From assembly GCA_020073085.1 (NCBI GenBank), contig JAIQFV010000002.1, positions 133,586 through 197,585 on the forward strand: a stretch of 64,000 nucleotides of DNA, written 5' to 3'. Under the pieces are notes generated by a model. The model ran no database searches and was not told where the DNA came from. It was given only the letters and a program-made list of their open reading frames with translations. A program made the position numbers and the translations under genes. This DNA is from Terriglobia bacterium (lineage in GTDB: Bacteria > Acidobacteriota > Terriglobia > JAIQFV01). This document shows positions 55,384-62,645 of this stretch, in pieces; the stretch's first letter is position 1; each line of letters starts with the position of its first letter.

Positions 55384-55402
55384 TGCTGTGGTTTGTGCTG
55401 TG

Positions 55403-55465
55403 GGGCAGACGTCTCGTCTGCCCATTTCAAGTAGCCAAGTAGGGCGACCAATCTGGCCGCCCTAC
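55403..55465. repeat. Two inverted repeats in the leader of the sulfite reductase gene
   Basis: GGGCAGACG-TCT-CGTCTGCCC (55403-55423), related to the palindrome at 35032, and a 27-base near-palindrome with arms GTAGGGCG and CGCCCTAC (55439-55465, one A-C mismatch in the inner stem). They lie just before the start codon at 55481 and could also influence its translation. Confidence 0.8.
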
Positions 55466-55480
55466 AAGAGGAAATCATTT

Positions 55481-57451
55481 ATGAGCAACGCACAAAAACA
55501 AGCACGGACACGGAACGCAGTAACTCCCGAGCAAGAGGCCGAAATCGCCCGGCTCGTCGGCGAAATCGACCGCCTGGAAAGAGCTCACAGCGATCCCGAT
55601 GACTTCAAACGCTTTCGCCTGGAAAACGGCATTTATGGGATTCGCGGGGTTTCGGACCAGCACATGGTCCGCGTGAAGGTCCGGTTTGGGAAGCTCGATG
55701 CGGCGCAGCTTGAAACCCTGGCTGAGATCGCGGAGCGTTTTACGCCGAGCCACAAGGTCCATCTCACCACGCGGCAGGATGTTCAATTTCATTATATCCG
55801 GAGGCGGGATCTCCCGGCCGTCCTCACGCTCCTGGCGGAGAGCGGCCTGACCACGAGGGAGGCCTGCGGAAACACGGTCCGAAACGTCACCGCCTGCCCT
55901 TTTGCCGGCATCTCGGCGACGGAGGTGTTTGATGTGCGCCCGTATGCCGAGGCGGTTTCGCTGTATTTTTTGAGGAATCCCTTGAACCAGAATCTCCCGC
56001 GAAAATTCAAGATTGCCTTTGAGGGATGCACAGAAGATCACGCCCGGACCCCGATTCATGACTTCGGCGCAGTGGCGGCGACGCGAGGGGCGAATGGGTC
56101 GAGCGAACGGGGCTTTCGAATCTACCTCGGGGGCGGCTTGGGCGCGCAGCCGGCATCGGCACAGCGGCTCGAGGAGTTCACTCCGGGACACCTGTTGATT
56201 GCGACCGCGGAGGCCGTCCTGCGGGTATTCGATCGCTTTGGAGAACGGCGGGAGGACCGCTCGCACCGCATGCGCGCCCGGCTGAAATTTCTCATCCGGG
56301 AGTGGGGATGGGAGAAGTTTCGTGAAGCGGTCCTCAAAGAGCGGAGGGTTGTTTCGCTGACGCAATCGGGACGTGCGGCCATTCCGTTCAACCTGGAAGA
56401 GGAACAACCGCCCCTCGGAGAGATCGAATTCAAAAGGGTGATTGAGGACGGGGTCTCGGGTCGCCTCACTGCCGGCATTCAGGACAGGGGCAGACGGGAC
56501 GTCAGCGCCTCGGCCAGCCGGAGTTTGTTTGACCGTGAGCGCCGGTTCCTGAAGTGGCAAGGCTCGAATGTCATTCCCCAAAAGCAGAAAGGCTGGAGCG
56601 CCGTGATCGTGCGGTCGCCGCTCGGGGATCTAACCGTGACGAACCTGCGCCACATCGCCCGCACGGCTCAACGGTTTTGCGGAGGCCGGCTCCAGGTGGC
56701 CATCTCCCAGAACCTGATGTTGCGGTGGGTCCCGAATGCCGCAGTCCGGTTGGTGTACGACCAACTTGAAGCAGCCGGACTGGCGCACGGCGGAGCGCAC
56801 CAGTTGGCCGATATCACGCGCTGCCCCGGCGCCGATACATGCCAGATTGCGATCACGCATTCGCGCGGACTGGCGGAGGCCCTGGCGCCCCTGGTTGAAA
56901 GGGACCTGGGGGAATTTCCTGAACTCGAACAACTTTCAATCAAAATCTCCGGCTGCATGAATTCCTGCGGCCAACATCACATCGCCGACATCGGATTTTA
57001 TGGCGCCAGCGAAAACGTGAAGGGGCACGAACTGCCCAAATACGTCGTGATGCTGGGAGGCCGGACGCGCGAAGGGTTGGCGGAATTTGCCGTCCCTATC
57101 GCACAGATCCCGGCGAGACGGGTACCCGAGGCTACACGTGAGCTGTTGCTCTTCTACCGGGAAAACAAGCAAGAGAACGAGCTGTTTCGCGACTTTGTCG
57201 ACCGTCTCGGCAAAGCGAGTTTTCGCGCGCTGCTGGCCAAGTATCAGGAGGTTTCATCTTACGAAAAGGATACAGCGCTGTTTCGTGACCTTGGCGCAGA
57301 GGAGGAGTTCAAGGTGGTGATGGGTGTCGGAGAGTGCGCCGGGAATTCAGTTCCAAGTTCAAAGTCCAAAGTTCAAAGTCCGCCGCCGGGGGAGTTCGTT
57401 GGAAAACATGAAGGTGAGAGTTCTGGACAAAATTCTGCGGACATCCTCTGA
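55481..57451 (+). CDS. Ferredoxin-type nitrite/sulfite reductase
   Basis: Start ATG 55481, preceded by AGGAAA; 656 residues. Two homologous halves of ferredoxin-like plus siroheme-binding domains: HLTTRQDVQFHYI and CGNTVRNVTACPFAGI in the first, FCGGRLQVAISQNLMLRWV in the second. The [4Fe-4S]-siroheme ligands CPGADTC (448, 454) and SGCMNSC (492, 496) are intact. It does six-electron reduction of sulfite to sulfide or nitrite to ammonia; the siroheme genes downstream agree with either. The C-terminal tail of about 35 residues is encoded by a heptamer repeat. Confidence 0.92.
   Translation: MSNAQKQARTRNAVTPEQEAEIARLVGEIDRLERAHSDPDDFKRFRLENGIYGIRGVSDQHMVRVKVRFGKLDAAQLETLAEIAERFTPSHKVHLTTRQDVQFHYIRRRDLPAVLTLLAESGLTTREACGNTVRNVTACPFAGISATEVFDVRPYAEAVSLYFLRNPLNQNLPRKFKIAFEGCTEDHARTPIHDFGAVAATRGANGSSERGFRIYLGGGLGAQPASAQRLEEFTPGHLLIATAEAVLRVFDRFGERREDRSHRMRARLKFLIREWGWEKFREAVLKERRVVSLTQSGRAAIPFNLEEEQPPLGEIEFKRVIEDGVSGRLTAGIQDRGRRDVSASASRSLFDRERRFLKWQGSNVIPQKQKGWSAVIVRSPLGDLTVTNLRHIARTAQRFCGGRLQVAISQNLMLRWVPNAAVRLVYDQLEAAGLAHGGAHQLADITRCPGADTCQIAITHSRGLAEALAPLVERDLGEFPELEQLSIKISGCMNSCGQHHIADIGFYGASENVKGHELPKYVVMLGGRTREGLAEFAVPIAQIPARRVPEATRELLLFYRENKQENELFRDFVDRLGKASFRALLAKYQEVSSYEKDTALFRDLGAEEEFKVVMGVGECAGNSVPSSKSKVQSPPPGEFVGKHEGESSGQNSADIL
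57349..57381. repeat. Period-7 repeat inside the 3' end of the sulfite reductase gene
   Basis: Units AAGTTCA / AAGTCCA alternate with a period of seven, the same family as the GGACYTT array at 19498-19700, here read through as codons. The peptide it gives (SSKSKVQSPPPG) matches the antisense reading of that array, which suggests an insertion into an existing gene end. Confidence 0.85.
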
Positions 57452-57481
57452 AACGATGCAGACAGCATGGGAGAGATCATC

Positions 57482-58060
57482 ATGAGCGATCTATATCCTG
57501 TTTTTCTCCGACTTCAGAACCGCCGGGCCCTGGTGGTGGGTGGGGGCACGATGGCGGCCCTGCGCACCAGGCAACTGCTGGCGGCGGGCGCCGCCGTGAC
57601 CGTGATCTCCCCCACGGTCAATGCCAGTCTGGATGAACTCGCCGAAGCCGGCCGCATTGAACTCATCGATCGGCCCTTTGCGCGAAGCGATGTCAGCAAG
57701 GGCTATTTCATCGTGATTGGCGCCACAGGTGATCCTGCGACGGAGGTTGCTTTGGCCAAAGAAGCGGAACGGCTCGGCCTTTTGTACAACGTGGTGGACG
57801 ACGTCGAACATTCCAACTTCTATACGCCGGCTTTGGTGGAGCGGGGGGATCTTAAAATCGCCATCTCCACCAACGGGCTGAGTCCGGTGCTCGCCCGGCA
57901 GCTGCGACAGGAAATCGAGGCAGCCATTCCGTCCGTGACCGGGGAATGGATCAAGCAATTGGGGCAACTGCGGCAGAGGTTGAAGTTCGAGATCCCGGTG
58001 GATTTCGAGACCCGGAAGCAAATCATTCAAGAAGTGATCGAGAAGACGATTCAAAGATGA
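57482..58060 (+). CDS. Precorrin-2 dehydrogenase (siroheme synthase N-terminal type)
   Basis: A 192-residue protein; ATG 57482 preceded by GGGAGAG. NAD motif VVGGGTMAALRTRQLLAAGAAVTVISP, then the region for precorrin-2 oxidation (YNVVDDVEHSNFYTPALVERGDLKIAISTNG), which marks the CysG-N/Met8p/SirC group. It makes sirohydrochlorin from precorrin-2; no separate ferrochelatase for siroheme (CbiX/SirB) is seen here, though Met8p-type enzymes can also insert iron. Its stop overlaps the next gene (ATGA). Confidence 0.92.
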   Translation: MSDLYPVFLRLQNRRALVVGGGTMAALRTRQLLAAGAAVTVISPTVNASLDELAEAGRIELIDRPFARSDVSKGYFIVIGATGDPATEVALAKEAERLGLLYNVVDDVEHSNFYTPALVERGDLKIAISTNGLSPVLARQLRQEIEAAIPSVTGEWIKQLGQLRQRLKFEIPVDFETRKQIIQEVIEKTIQR

Positions 58061-58881
58061 GCACGGTTGAAGACAATTCAGGAAGGGTACTCATCGTGGG
58101 CGCCGGACCGGGCGCCAGCGATCTGATCACCTTGAGAGGCCTGCGCGCCCTGCGGCAAGCAGACGTCGTCTTCTATGACGCACTGGTCAGCCCTCAATTG
58201 CTTTTGGAAGCAGACGAGAGAGCAGAAAGAATTTTTGTCGGAAAAAGGTGCGGGCGTCATGCCATGGACCAAAGAGAAATCAGCCGGTGGATGGTCTCCG
58301 AGGCTCGTGCGGGAAAGACGGTGGTGCGGCTCAAGGGAGGAGATCCACTGGTTTTTGGGCGCGGGGGCGAAGAGGCGCTGGCGTGTGAAGAAGCAGCTGT
58401 CGAGTTCGAACTGATCCCGGGTGTGTCATCGGCCCTCGGCGCGGCAAGCTACGCGGGCATTCCGCTGACTCATCGCGGCATCGCATCCTCGGTAGCGTTC
58501 ATTACCGCCCGTGAGGGTCGGGAAGAGGATACCGGCGAGAACAAACTGGCCAGCCTCGCCAAGGCCGCGGACACGCTGGTCATCTTCATGGGTGGCTCGC
58601 GATTGCGCTCGATCGTCGAGTCATTAATTGGCGCAGGGCTGTCGGCATCGACGCCCGTGGCCGTGATCAGCGAGGCCACACTTCAAAATCAACACACGAT
58701 TGTGGCGACGTTAAGCACGATCGCGGCGCAAGTTGCCGAGGCCTGCTTGACTACACCCATGCTGATCATCGTGGGCGAAGTGGCGCAACTCAGCACGGCG
58801 CTCAACTGGTTTGAACGGCAGCGGCGGGCTGTGCCCGCAATTGAGCCCGACGCCCCCGCTGAACTTATCCACCCGCAATAG
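58057..58881 (+). CDS. cobA: Uroporphyrinogen-III C-methyltransferase
   Basis: A 274-residue protein from ATG 58057, overlapping the upstream stop. Family blocks are clear: VGAGPGASDLITLRGLRALRQADVVFYDALV, RLKGGDPLVFGRGGEEA, GVSSALGAASYAGIPLTHRG. It methylates uroporphyrinogen III twice using SAM to give precorrin-2, the substrate of the preceding gene. Together they make siroheme for the reductase. Its 3' end overlaps the 3' end of the convergent ThiS-like gene by 17 bases. Confidence 0.96.
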   Translation: MSTVEDNSGRVLIVGAGPGASDLITLRGLRALRQADVVFYDALVSPQLLLEADERAERIFVGKRCGRHAMDQREISRWMVSEARAGKTVVRLKGGDPLVFGRGGEEALACEEAAVEFELIPGVSSALGAASYAGIPLTHRGIASSVAFITAREGREEDTGENKLASLAKAADTLVIFMGGSRLRSIVESLIGAGLSASTPVAVISEATLQNQHTIVATLSTIAAQVAEACLTTPMLIIVGEVAQLSTALNWFERQRRAVPAIEPDAPAELIHPQ

Positions 58882-59140
58882 CCGGAATGATGGAGACTTC
58901 TGCCCCTTCGGGGATTGACGTCGCAAGGTTATTCAGAAAGCGAACATCCTCACCGTTAATGTAAACGTTGATGAAGCGCCGCAGCTGGCCGCCTTCGTCG
59001 CAAAGCCGGCCGCGAAACCCGGGGTATCGTTCTTCAAGTCTGTCGATGATATCTTTGACCGTCGCAGCATCGACCTCCACGGCATCGGCATTCCCCGCAA
59101 AGCGCTTCAACGGCGTGGGGATGAGTATTCGGTGTGACAT
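58865..59140 (-). CDS. ThiS/MoaD-family sulfur-carrier protein
   Basis: A 91-residue beta-grasp protein; AAGGAG eight bases before ATG. The core reads LIPTPLKRFAGNADAVEVDAATVKDIIDRLEERYPGFRG, then RRFINVYINGEDVRFL and a C-terminal IAGG. The free Gly-Gly end is what an E1-like enzyme adenylates and converts to a thiocarboxylate. Members deliver sulfur for thiamine, molybdopterin, cysteine (CysO) or methionine (HcyS). No ThiF/MoeB partner is in the window. It is on the same strand as the threonine-synthase-like gene, about 316 bases downstream of it. Confidence 0.88.
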   Translation of the reverse strand: MSHRILIPTPLKRFAGNADAVEVDAATVKDIIDRLEERYPGFRGRLCDEGGQLRRFINVYINGEDVRFLNNLATSIPEGAEVSIIPAIAGG

Positions 59141-59456: not shown

Positions 59457-60695
59457 TTAGGCGACTGCCCATAATTCAGAGATGGTCTGTTCAAACTGGC
59501 CAAAGCGGGGCTCAATGACGACGGGCGGTTCGAGTTGAACGGCTTCCTGTGTCTTCAGGCCATTACCGGTTATGGCGAGCACGGTGAGATCCTCCGGTCG
59601 AATGCGGCCTTGGTCGAAGAGCTTCCGGGTCACTGCAACCGTGACCCCGCCCGCCGTTTCCGTAAAAATACCTTCCGTTTCTGCCAGCAACCGAATCCCC
59701 GCCACGATTTCCTCGTCGGTCACATCCTCGGCCCAGCCGCCGCTGCGGGCGATCACGTCAGCGGCATGATATCCGTCAGCCGGATTTCCGATGGCCAGGG
59801 ACTTGGCGATGGTGTTGGGCTTGACGGGACGGATGTCGTTGGAGCCGCGCTTCACCGCATCGACAATGGGATTACATCCGCTGGCCTGGGCGCCGTAAAC
59901 CCTTGTCCGGGCCTCACCTTCGAGAAGGCCGAGCCGTTCGAATTCCTTCAAGGCCTTGTGGATTTTGGAAATGAGAGATCCCCCGGCCATGGGCACCACA
60001 ACTGCATCGGGGGCGCGCCAGCCCAACTGCTCGGCGATTTCGTGCCCAAAGGTCTTTGAGCCTTCGCCATAAAAGGGGCGCAGATTGACGTTCACAAATC
60101 CCCAGGGGAAGCGGTCGGCGATTTCGCTGCACAGGCGGTTCACGTCGTCATAGTTTCCCCGGATGCGGATGACACGCGAGCCATAGATGGATGTCGCGGT
60201 GACCTTGCTCTTTTCCAGGTTCTCGGGGATGAGGATATAAGCCGGCAAATTGGCCAGCGCCGCATTGGCGGCCACGGAGTTGGCGAGGTTTCCGGTTGAA
60301 GCGCAGCCCACAGCTTCCAGCCCGAATTCGCGGGCCTTGTTGATGGCCACGGCCGTGACGCGGTCCTTGAAAGAAAGCGTGGGCGCATTCACGCTGTCGT
60401 TCTTGATATAGAGATTCCTGGCGCCGAAGATCCGGCCCAGCCGGTCGGCGCGAATCAGCGGTGTTCCGCCGGTGGCCAGGCCCACCTGCGGGTCTTCTTC
60501 GATCGGCAACAGCTCGCGGAAGCGCCACATGTTCTTTTCACGCGACTGGATCGTTTCGCGTGTAAGCGAGCGGGATATCCCCTCGTAATCGTAAACCACC
60601 TCCAAGGGGGCAAAGCACTCCTCACATCCGGCGCGAAGCCCCTTGGGATACTGTTTTCCGCATTCGCGGCATTTCAATCCAATGACAAAACTCAT
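59457..60695 (-). CDS. thrC: Threonine-synthase-like PLP enzyme with zinc ribbon
   Basis: Start ATG 60695, after AAGGAG; 412 residues. An N-terminal zinc ribbon (Cys9, 12, 24, 27) precedes a fold-type-II PLP domain: the Schiff-base Lys in APTLSFKDR (K110), phosphate-binding ASTGNLANS and GGGS-like VVPMAGGSLISK. By sequence it is a threonine synthase (phosphohomoserine to threonine). Two SAM-II-type elements with terminators upstream and a ThiS-like gene downstream suggest instead, or also, sulfur transfer to phosphohomoserine or phosphoserine. The CysM/CysO system uses a similar pairing. Confidence 0.9.
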   Translation of the reverse strand: MSFVIGLKCRECGKQYPKGLRAGCEECFAPLEVVYDYEGISRSLTRETIQSREKNMWRFRELLPIEEDPQVGLATGGTPLIRADRLGRIFGARNLYIKNDSVNAPTLSFKDRVTAVAINKAREFGLEAVGCASTGNLANSVAANAALANLPAYILIPENLEKSKVTATSIYGSRVIRIRGNYDDVNRLCSEIADRFPWGFVNVNLRPFYGEGSKTFGHEIAEQLGWRAPDAVVVPMAGGSLISKIHKALKEFERLGLLEGEARTRVYGAQASGCNPIVDAVKRGSNDIRPVKPNTIAKSLAIGNPADGYHAADVIARSGGWAEDVTDEEIVAGIRLLAETEGIFTETAGGVTVAVTRKLFDQGRIRPEDLTVLAITGNGLKTQEAVQLEPPVVIEPRFGQFEQTISELWAVA

Positions 60696-60798
60696 GGCAG
60701 GTACTCCTTCCTTCTGACTGACTTCCGGGAGCACTCTCCCGGTCCTTCGAATGAACGGTGGGCCTCAGGGGGACCTGCGCGGGCTGGAGCCAATAAAA

Positions 60799-60831
60799 TA
60801 AATCCCGCGCTAAACTCGCGCGGGGTTTGAA
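60799..60831 (-). terminator. Terminator of the second riboswitch unit
   Basis: On the minus strand, a CCCCGCGCGA/TTTAGCGCGGG stem is followed by ATTTATTTT. It sits between the second aptamer and the thrC-like start, so it probably carries the expression platform. Confidence 0.85.
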
Positions 60832-60837
60832 ATCTGG

Positions 60838-60891
60838 TCCGGCTGTTTAGCAGTTTTTTACGTGGAGCAAGTCACCCTAAATCGCCACGTC
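60838..60891 (-). ncRNA. SAM-II-type riboswitch aptamer, proximal copy
   Basis: Minus-strand core: P1 ACGTGG / CCACGT, then GATTTA, TTGC and GCTAAA, which are the conserved parts of SAM-II. The loop has GGG where the reference sequence has CC, while the tail has CC where it has GG, an apparent compensatory swap that supports the pseudoknot. Followed by its own terminator. Family knowledge: SAM-II senses S-adenosylmethionine and reduces expression of methionine genes. Confidence 0.75.
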
Positions 60892-60910
60892 CGATCGGTT
60901 GCCGATAAAA

Positions 60911-60943
60911 CGAAAAGCCCCGCGCTAAATAGCACGGGGCTTT
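60911..60943 (-). terminator. Terminator of the first riboswitch unit
   Basis: On the minus strand, AAAGCCCCGTGCT pairs with AGCGCGGGGCTTTT, followed by CGTTTT. It separates the two aptamers. Confidence 0.88.
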
Positions 60944-60949
60944 CAGTAT

Positions 60950-61006
60950 CCCTTGACGATTTAGCACATGTTTAACGTGGAGCAATTGGCCTTAAATCAC
61001 CACGTC
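60950..61006 (-). ncRNA. SAM-II-type riboswitch aptamer, distal copy
   Basis: Minus-strand order: GACGTGG, TGATTTAAGG, CCAATTGCTC, CCACGT, then GTGCTAAA and AAGGG. This closely follows the SAM-II consensus (P1, GATTTAA, CC, TTGC, P1', GCTAAA, GGG). CC in the loop can pair with GG in the 3' tail to form the pseudoknot. Followed by a terminator. It is 255 bases or more upstream of the thrC-like start and is the first of two tandem units. Confidence 0.8.
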
Positions 61007-61076
61007 AAGCAATAACATAGCCAAATTACCGGAAACAGTTTCAGGTGTCAATGAGAAATCAAGCGTGTGAAGAAAT

Positions 61077-62645
61077 TCACCGGACGGATCGATGCGCTTG
61101 GGGCAACGCTTTCTCCAACTCCCCATACAGATGGAGTACGGGGTCGCTCGATGTGCGCAGGGCATCGACAAGCACCGCACGGTCTTCACCTTCGGAGGAG
61201 GTCATCGAGTTGATCAGATTATGCACGTGCAGAAACCATCCGACAGGGCTGGACCTTTGCACATCGGAATCGCCCAGGAACTCCACATAACTGCTTACGA
61301 CATGTTGCCGTGTGTGACCGCGCGGGAGGATCTCCAGCAACCCAAAGTACAAGACACACTTTTGATGAAAGTGGTCCACTTCATACTTACTCTCTTCCGT
61401 GTCCCAGTCGGCCAACGCATTCAGAAACTCGCCCAACTGCAATTGCCATTCCGATTCTTGTTTTTCAGCATCACCACGCAACTCGCCTTTCGACGTGAAG
61501 CGAAGCTTCTTATATTCGGAAAGAAGTTGTTTCGCCGGCGCTGTTTGCCAATAGCGATACTCCTGAGCTGCGCCCTCCGTCCTTTCGGGCCGCGTTTCCT
61601 CCACCAGAATGGGTAGAACGGTGCTCACCCCTGAAGCCCTGCTGCGAAGGTCCTGGTTGAAGTATTCTATCGATTGTAACTCTCTAGACTGTTGCTCCTT
61701 GGCCAAAGAGGTATCAGCACACCGTGGGCCGGTCAGATTCTTAACAAGGTAAGCCCGAAAGACCCGAAGCAATTCATCCACAAGGACACCTTGTTTCTTT
61801 GAAGTATCGATTAACCTGCCCACCTCCTTGACCACAGAGTTCCCCCGCATTGAGTAGGAAAAGGACCGATCATCCGGAGACACTCTGGCAACTCCGAGGG
61901 TAAACGCGCGCAACAGGACCTCAAGCTGAGGGGGGGACAAACTTAAAGAGGCGATCGCATCCGCGGCCGGCGCCACTTGAGTAGGAGAGAACAGATCCAT
62001 CAGGAAGGATTCTGCAAAGTGAATATGATCATTCAGGCTCTTCTCTTTTGCCGTAAACCCTGATTGCACTATTTCTCTGAGCGTTTCATGGAAATCGGAA
62101 AAATCATAAACGAGAGGTTCTTCACAATTGAGGGGAGGGAGTTGGTGGATTCTGATTTCGCCAAAGAGCTCGCGAGCCTTTCCCCGGTCTACCGACAACA
62201 TTGCCTTTACCGCCCTGCATTGGAGCGACAAAGCATCCAGGTTAAGATCAAGGGCCTTTGCAAGATATCCAGAACGTGTGTCGGTGAGGCTTCCCGCCAA
62301 AGCTCTTCGACGAATCGGGGACGAGGAATGCGCTCCCCATCGAAAAGCTTCCTCCAAGAGTTCGCGCTTCCATGCTGATTGTTTAATCCGGTCTGATTGG
62401 GCGATTCGAAGAAGTGCATCGGCAGCGAATTCAGGCGGAGCATTTCGCGCAGAATCCACCAGGGCTTCGATCTCGACTGGACGCCCGGGGCGGTCGCCGC
62501 CAATCCTTCCCTTGGCTTGTTGATCGCTGACTTGGGGGGATTTAGAAGCCTGCTGGTCCCCTGTCGGGGTTACCGCAGAGAAGTGGCGATGAGAACCCGC
62601 AAGGATTAAGACGAGGAGGAGAGGCCATCTAAGATTTGAGCGCAT
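61077..62645 (-). CDS. Exported protein of unknown function
   Basis: A 522-residue protein with signal peptide (MRSNLRWPLLLVLILAGS). The mature part is mostly helical with many charged residues, including a possible HEAT-like repeat stretch (about residues 60-150, ADALLRIAQSDR, SSPIRRRALAGSL). I recognise no family with confidence. It lies upstream of the riboswitch region and downstream of a methyltransferase, both on the same strand. Confidence 0.75.
   Translation of the reverse strand: MRSNLRWPLLLVLILAGSHRHFSAVTPTGDQQASKSPQVSDQQAKGRIGGDRPGRPVEIEALVDSARNAPPEFAADALLRIAQSDRIKQSAWKRELLEEAFRWGAHSSSPIRRRALAGSLTDTRSGYLAKALDLNLDALSLQCRAVKAMLSVDRGKARELFGEIRIHQLPPLNCEEPLVYDFSDFHETLREIVQSGFTAKEKSLNDHIHFAESFLMDLFSPTQVAPAADAIASLSLSPPQLEVLLRAFTLGVARVSPDDRSFSYSMRGNSVVKEVGRLIDTSKKQGVLVDELLRVFRAYLVKNLTGPRCADTSLAKEQQSRELQSIEYFNQDLRSRASGVSTVLPILVEETRPERTEGAAQEYRYWQTAPAKQLLSEYKKLRFTSKGELRGDAEKQESEWQLQLGEFLNALADWDTEESKYEVDHFHQKCVLYFGLLEILPRGHTRQHVVSSYVEFLGDSDVQRSSPVGWFLHVHNLINSMTSSEGEDRAVLVDALRTSSDPVLHLYGELEKALPQAHRSVR

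Follow-up and report, generated by a model that had tools for sequence, protein, structure and literature searches.

Why would a gene of the threonine synthase family lie behind two SAM-II-type elements, and what would the pair do there? The question is posed by the minus strand of the window, by which we mean the whole 64,000-nucleotide stretch of DNA analyzed here. An initial annotation had proposed two tandem SAM-II-type elements, each with its own terminator. Both copies do carry P1 (ACGTGG/CCACGT), GATTTA, TTGC and GCTAAA in that order where proposed, and a terminator follows each of them (Table 1). The aptamers are spaced 115 nt apart, distal to proximal, in one leader with two terminators and two matching antiterminators. 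Transcription is predicted to start a few nucleotides 5' of the distal aptamer, behind a promoter-like site; TTGACA or TTGACG also occurs about 45 nt upstream of the distal aptamer in the related loci L006, L009, L010 and L044. The window's promoter-like site was not flagged by our consensus scan, which demands four of six matches in the -10. Immediately 5' of the leader lies an unrelated 522-aa ORF (61077-62645, minus strand) with no Pfam or NCBIfam match.

Table 1. The leader and the genes behind it, in window positions
Feature	Position	Strand	Details	Basis
Promoter-like site	61023..61051	minus	TTGACA (61051-61046), 17 nt, TAATTT (61028-61023)	By eye from sequence
Distal SAM-II-type aptamer	60952..61006	minus	P1 61005-61000/60980-60975; GATTT 60998-60994; P2b 60991-60989/60957-60955; P2a 60983-60982/60965-60964; GCTAAA 60965-60960	RF00521 26.7 bits, alignment A1, pair counts
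Distal antiterminator (predicted)	60922..60967	minus	9 bp: GTGCTAAAT (60967-60959) x ATTTAGCGC (60930-60922)	Truncated-transcript folding, covariation with relatives
Distal intrinsic terminator	60904..60944	minus	14-bp stem 60944-60913, then T-rich tail	
Proximal SAM-II-type aptamer	60838..60891	minus	P1 60890-60885/60865-60860; GATTT 60883-60879; P2b 60876-60874/60843-60841; P2a 60868-60867/60851-60850; GCTAAA 60851-60846	RF00521 23.1 bits, alignment A1, pair counts
Proximal antiterminator (predicted)	60808..60852	minus	8 bp: TGCTAAAC (60852-60845) x GTTTAGCG (60815-60808)	Truncated-transcript folding, covariation
Proximal intrinsic terminator	60794..60824	minus	Stem 60824-60804 (7 GC bp), then T-rich tail	
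Ribosome site	~60700	minus	Some 100 nt downstream of the proximal terminator; ATG of the PLP enzyme at 60695	
PLP fold-type II enzyme, threonine synthase family (probably a homocysteine synthase of MetM type)	59457..60695	minus	412 aa	PF00291, TIGR00260
MoaD/ThiS-like small protein, putative sulfur carrier	58865..59140	minus	C-terminal GG	PF02597, SAMP1 64.8 bits

Class assignment of the two elements

At default cut-offs, Rfam gave no match anywhere in the window. Under permissive settings, the best Rfam explanation of each aptamer stretch is RF00521 (SAM_alpha), at 26.7 bits for the distal copy (61013-60940, E 4e-4) and 23.1 bits for the proximal copy (60898-60827, E 3.8e-3) in the 401 nt searched. 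The scan with this family suggested by the initial annotation thus returned alignments that span all 79 model positions, but at scores short of the gathering score of 36 bits, which is an annotation cut-off and no structural definition; default annotation therefore overlooks both copies. Matches in the region to F6, ar35, Leu_leader, Thr_leader and rnk_leader fell far under their own cut-offs, were due to the terminator hairpins and were discarded. A covariance model, R1, built from both window copies and 24 relatives gives the copies 73.3 and 68.9 bits, a match by construction because R1 includes them; its value lies in the distance to the next window match, at 12.4 bits, and in the absence of a third copy, none being found with R1 in the 5.8-Mb genome.

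The GATTT, TTGC and GCTAAA elements, whose loss in related genomes would have counted against the initial annotation, are retained in the 26 sequences (23 distinct) of alignment A1, where GATTT, TTGCTCCAC and GCTAAA are invariant. The SAM-pocket nucleotides within GAUUU, UUGC and GCUAAA, taken from the binding positions listed for SAM-II in PMC11508383, are likewise invariant in both copies and in the relatives aligned. The cells of P1, P2a and P2b in A1 hold 95.7% standard pairs, compared with 19-46% when the partners are slid by 1-3 columns. Among the 23 distinct sequences, P1, which is 6 bp in both copies, is paired in 97.8% of cells with one double change from C-G to G-C, the GC/GC of P2a is invariant, and P2b is 88.4% paired with changes on both sides. 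RNAalifold favors a local L1 hairpin (GGC with GCU beside UUGC) because it cannot represent pseudoknots; we did not adopt this hairpin, as the slid-register controls favor the pseudoknot.

The H-type pseudoknot is spaced as in the Rfam consensus, GCC-5nt-GC ... GC-6nt-GGC. In this register the distal copy forms P2b as GGC x GTC and the proximal copy as GGT x GCC; every pair is standard, and the middle one is flipped from the consensus C-G to G-U or G-C. An apparent swap from CC/GG to GG/CC between the copies had been described; a compensatory change was right in kind, given the flipped middle pair, but the pairing assigned to the distal copy, between the CC in GGCC and the GG in AAGGG, does not fit this register. 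P2b takes the compensatory states GGC/GCC, AGC/GCT, GGT/ACC and AAC/GTT among 54 distinct aptamers. Its covariation is modest (139 of 162 pairs versus 132.7 in shuffles, sd 2.3) because some copies retain just two pairs.

The sub-threshold Rfam scores would also suit a SAM-II-like fold in which one or both copies sense a related ligand, for example S-adenosylhomocysteine, or in which one copy is a decayed duplicate, SAM binding here being predicted from sequence. We judge this very improbable: the SAM-II core positions show no change in either copy or in the 26 relatives, and the core is intact in both copies of tandem loci. Against another ligand, the targets in the phylum are mostly methionine-pathway genes, and before the same gene SAM-I takes the place of SAM-II, as described below.

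Terminators and proposed antiterminators

Terminator-like sites in the region number three, versus 0.7 in shuffles. The terminator following each aptamer carries UUURGC, the complement of GCUAAA, in its loop and 3' arm. The full GCUAAA complement is present in 50 of 67 SAM-II terminators and in 12 of 304 control terminators, the controls being other hairpin-plus-T sites in the same DNA; part of the 12 are probably unmasked SAM-II elements. In 44 of the 50, the base 3' of GCUAAA is complementary to the base 5' of UUURGC, where shuffles reach a mean of 19 and a maximum of 33. Because these sequences share ancestry, the shuffle exaggerates their independence, and the stronger argument is that three states of this base pair occur across separate families. 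Written as the base after GCUAAA and the base before UUURGC, T/A is found in the distal copies of the window and of L044 and in L207, C/G in most of families f1 and f3, and G/C in family f6 and several others. Elements lacking a terminator or the complement are few (the proximal copy of L010, L188 and L222).

When the growing transcript is folded, the antiterminator is the best structure once UUUAGCG(C) emerges, with P1 intact. In both window copies it precedes terminator closure and yields 2-4 bases later. Once the transcript is full length, the terminator has the lower energy (-40.5 versus -28.3 and -30.5 versus -24.2 kcal/mol), so that control must be kinetic, a step that we infer. Because antiterminator and SAM pocket share GCUAAA, SAM binding should free the terminator. 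At low SAM, nascent GCUAAA would pair with the UUURGC of the terminator; the resulting antiterminator would exclude the terminator stem and transcription would go on (ON). With SAM bound, GCUAAA would be held in the pseudoknot, the terminator would fold and transcription would stop (OFF). On comparative sequence evidence, the leader very probably consists of two complete SAM-II-type OFF riboswitches in series, each with its own antiterminator and terminator. The copies would act independently, and full expression would require both to be empty, making the response steeper and tighter. Such "pseudo-cooperative" behavior has been described for tandem riboswitches (PMC9481103), and the window leader should fit this case.

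The terminators might instead be constitutive attenuators or the ends of upstream transcripts, with SAM having either no effect or an effect on RNA stability exerted through the pseudoknot alone. They are far more stable than the antiterminators at full length, and the terminator behind the SAM-II aptamer of Sinorhizobium meliloti metA was not predicted to respond to SAM (PMC9373788). A constitutive terminator, however, would have no need of the observed covariation between its loop and the aptamer, seen in three base states in separate families. This makes such an account quite unlikely. It could also be that the copies divide the work in the manner of SAM-II/SAM-V tandems, the distal one acting on termination and the proximal one on translation or mRNA stability. 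Mixed expression platforms have been described for some tandem SAM-II elements (PMC9481103), and in genus g12 the proximal copy has no recognizable terminator (L010:1347-1405 and L012:2820-2878); these proximal copies may act on translation or be decaying. In the window, by contrast, a terminator and its matching antiterminator are found at both copies, and the ribosome site lies well beyond the proximal terminator. A division of work is unlikely for this leader, and we keep to two transcriptional OFF switches in series.

The gene under control

The downstream gene had been called threonine-synthase-like. Its product does belong to the thrC family, scoring 230 bits with PF00291 and 286 bits, above cut-off, with the NCBIfam model TIGR00260 (thrC), but it is probably the homocysteine synthase MetM. 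With the threonine synthase model PRK08197 it reaches 292.6, below the cut-off of 303, and a better threonine synthase candidate lies elsewhere in the window genome at 605 bits. MetA was not found in any of 16 genomes tested and was dropped as a supplier of acyl-homoserine, and MetX was undetected in G012, G040 and G026, all of which have the MetM-like gene under SAM-II. There is also a precedent: the MetM of Streptomyces is described as a homocysteine synthase that uses O-phosphohomoserine, and in S. albulus its gene lies behind a SAM riboswitch (Hasebe et al. 2024, as cited in PMC12172450). The PRK08197 miss, the 605-bit paralogue, the MoaD-like neighbor, the absences of MetA and MetX and the MetM precedent therefore lead us to read the gene as MetM-like, a reading that we consider fairly probable from its context and this secondary citation. 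SAM control of a "threonine-synthase-like" gene would then be explained by a product that makes homocysteine.

A genuine threonine synthase, through which SAM would govern threonine supply at the homoserine branch point, is a rival for the target only and not for the riboswitches. The above-cut-off TIGR00260 score speaks for it, as do the nearest solved structures, which are threonine synthases. Set against these are the PRK08197 shortfall and the stronger paralogue, the MoaD-like neighbor, SAM-I at the same gene in several phyla, the three genomes that have the gene and in which neither MetX nor MetA was detected, and an Armatimonadota T-box whose specifier reads as AUG (below). We hold a threonine synthase to be doubtful, though with an appreciable chance of being correct. 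If the enzyme is MetM-like, SAM would shut down its own precursor pathway by way of homocysteine formation from O-phosphohomoserine. The adjacent MoaD-like protein is possibly a sulfur carrier, perhaps delivering sulfur to the MetM-like enzyme; such a neighbor is kept in 8 of the 13 SAM-II loci L005-L017.

The window genome (G000) also encodes a MetX-homoserine dehydrogenase fusion (L182:2-2149, minus strand; G000:C4) and three Cys/Met PLP enzymes (PF01053), so more than one route may be possible there. On the plus strand, adjoining the MetM-like genes, positions 55388-58881 of the window encode a NIR_SIR enzyme, a precorrin-2 dehydrogenase-like protein and a uroporphyrinogen-III methyltransferase, a siroheme and nitrite/sulfite reductase cluster whose place here is consistent with a sulfur assimilation island.

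Distribution, exchange with SAM-I and known systems

The same layout, which the initial annotation had proposed to look for upstream of thrC-like genes in other Acidobacteriota, recurs in about a dozen genomes. A SAM-II element precedes the gene of every one of the closest orthologues of the downstream protein (70-97% identity). Two copies are present in the window genome, G001, G002, G012 and G040, and one copy in G004, G019, G026, G033, G047, G060, G066 and G072. Named relatives are Chloracidobacterium sp. UBA7656, the Blastocatellia bacteria AA13, SSF51 and nzgw74, and an Acidobacteria groundwater genome; three are tandem. Scanning with R1 was positive in 45 of 299 genomes of the class and in 49 of 396 genomes sampled from the phylum, the latter sample adding tandems in G306, G345, G356, G508, G543, G557 and G599. 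Except for G508, all tandems read precede the same MetM-like gene. In Acidobacteriota loci scanned with Rfam, RF00521 scores range from 23 to 35 bits, all below cut-off; together with the phylum-wide matches, this points to a phylum-wide SAM-II lineage invisible to default annotation.

Other SAM-II targets in Acidobacteriota are mostly genes of the methionine and aspartate pathways: metX, PF01053 Cys/Met PLP enzymes, homocysteine methyltransferase, aspartate kinase and asd-lysC. In G002, of the same family as the window genome, a third copy (L159:1433-1490; G002:C48:3432-3489) lies ahead of an asd-lysC operon for aspartate semialdehyde dehydrogenase and aspartate kinase, and would extend the regulon to the aspartate pathway. 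The G508 tandem (L204; G508:C91), with terminators, precedes a short-chain dehydrogenase/reductase ORF, not an obvious methionine gene. A SAM-II element with a terminator lies ahead of a peroxiredoxin gene in L207 (G306:C26), and one above the RF01726 "long loop" cut-off (48.6 bits; L003:1513-1567, minus strand; G004:C280) lies before a TonB-dependent-receptor-like gene. An RF00521 match in G021 (L004) is a false positive inside an ftsH-like coding region.

Nearly all relatives of the class have a SAM riboswitch, SAM-I or SAM-II, upstream of the threonine-synthase-fold PLP gene. In class families without SAM-II, the orthologous gene is under an above-cut-off SAM-I riboswitch in 34 of 35 loci (16/16 and 18/19), which is the sole SAM-I in each genome tested. 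SAM-I also lies upstream of the MetM-like gene in Planctomycetota, Bacillota and others, and in an Armatimonadota genome the place is taken by a T-box leader (L092:2159-2428, 97 bits) whose specifier, read by eye, appears to be AUG (Met). In the protein tree, the SAM-II genes sit in two separate places: one group takes in several acidobacterial families in and outside the class, and the other is nested among SAM-I genes of f6 and f9. A single clade of SAM-II-bearing metM-like genes was rejected (AU test, p 4.6e-12, on a quick tree). At least in f6, it looks as if one riboswitch class was replaced by another at a resident gene; for the first group, joint transfer of gene and leader is possible. 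We lean toward the view that the unrelated classes SAM-I and SAM-II have been swapped at one gene at least twice within the phylum, with the gene staying in place and SAM-II coming in as a mobile or newly captured leader, and that in one lineage SAM-II was duplicated and then retained as a tandem across Acidobacteriota. If true, metM is a natural experiment in which single SAM-I, single SAM-II and tandem SAM-II, each on an orthologous gene, are open to direct comparison.

These observations add a phylum to the SAM-II class, one in which present Rfam models overlook it. They also propose, resting on covariation, a base-level antitermination mechanism for SAM-II, whose mechanisms were called experimentally unestablished in a 2007 survey (PMC2258182). 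The O-phosphohomoserine route to methionine, a recent discovery, would be linked to SAM control in uncultured Acidobacteriota, which argues that "threonine synthase" names are wrong there. The initial annotation had regarded the layout as unusual. SAM-II and tandem SAM-II with terminators are already known, the tandems from 44 examples, some with a terminator each (PMC9481103). Our literature search for SAM-II with threonine synthase or Acidobacteria returned nothing on point; as far as the literature searched goes, what is new is the Acidobacteriota lineage, its target, the covariation-backed antiterminator and the SAM-I/SAM-II exchange at one gene, and some of the 44 published tandems may already be Acidobacteriota.

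Compared with RF00521, the window elements share a nearly identical P1, the L1 GAUUU, the P2a/P2b register (spacers of 5 and 6 nt next to the GC pairs) and the UUGC and GCUAAA core. They differ in their sub-gathering scores, a short 3-bp P2b with altered pairs, and a phylum unnamed for the class in the literature searched. The published tandems likewise have two SAM-II aptamers per leader, sometimes with a terminator each, but differ in host phylum and target gene (PMC9481103). Pelagibacter SAM-II/SAM-V leaders also string together two SAM aptamers, the first of them followed by a terminator (PMC11508383, PMC9481103); there, however, the second element is SAM-V acting on translation, whereas the window has SAM-II twice, each with a terminator. 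S. meliloti metZ, a methionine biosynthesis gene preceded by a terminator under the predicted control of a SAM-II aptamer (PMC9373788), has a single copy and belongs to a different gene family. In target, the leader resembles that of S. albulus metM, where a SAM riboswitch precedes the gene for a homocysteine synthase that looks like threonine synthase (Hasebe et al. 2024, as cited in PMC12172450). This likeness is drawn at the level of "SAM riboswitch" and not of class; in the window, a tandem SAM-II stands before the metM-like gene.
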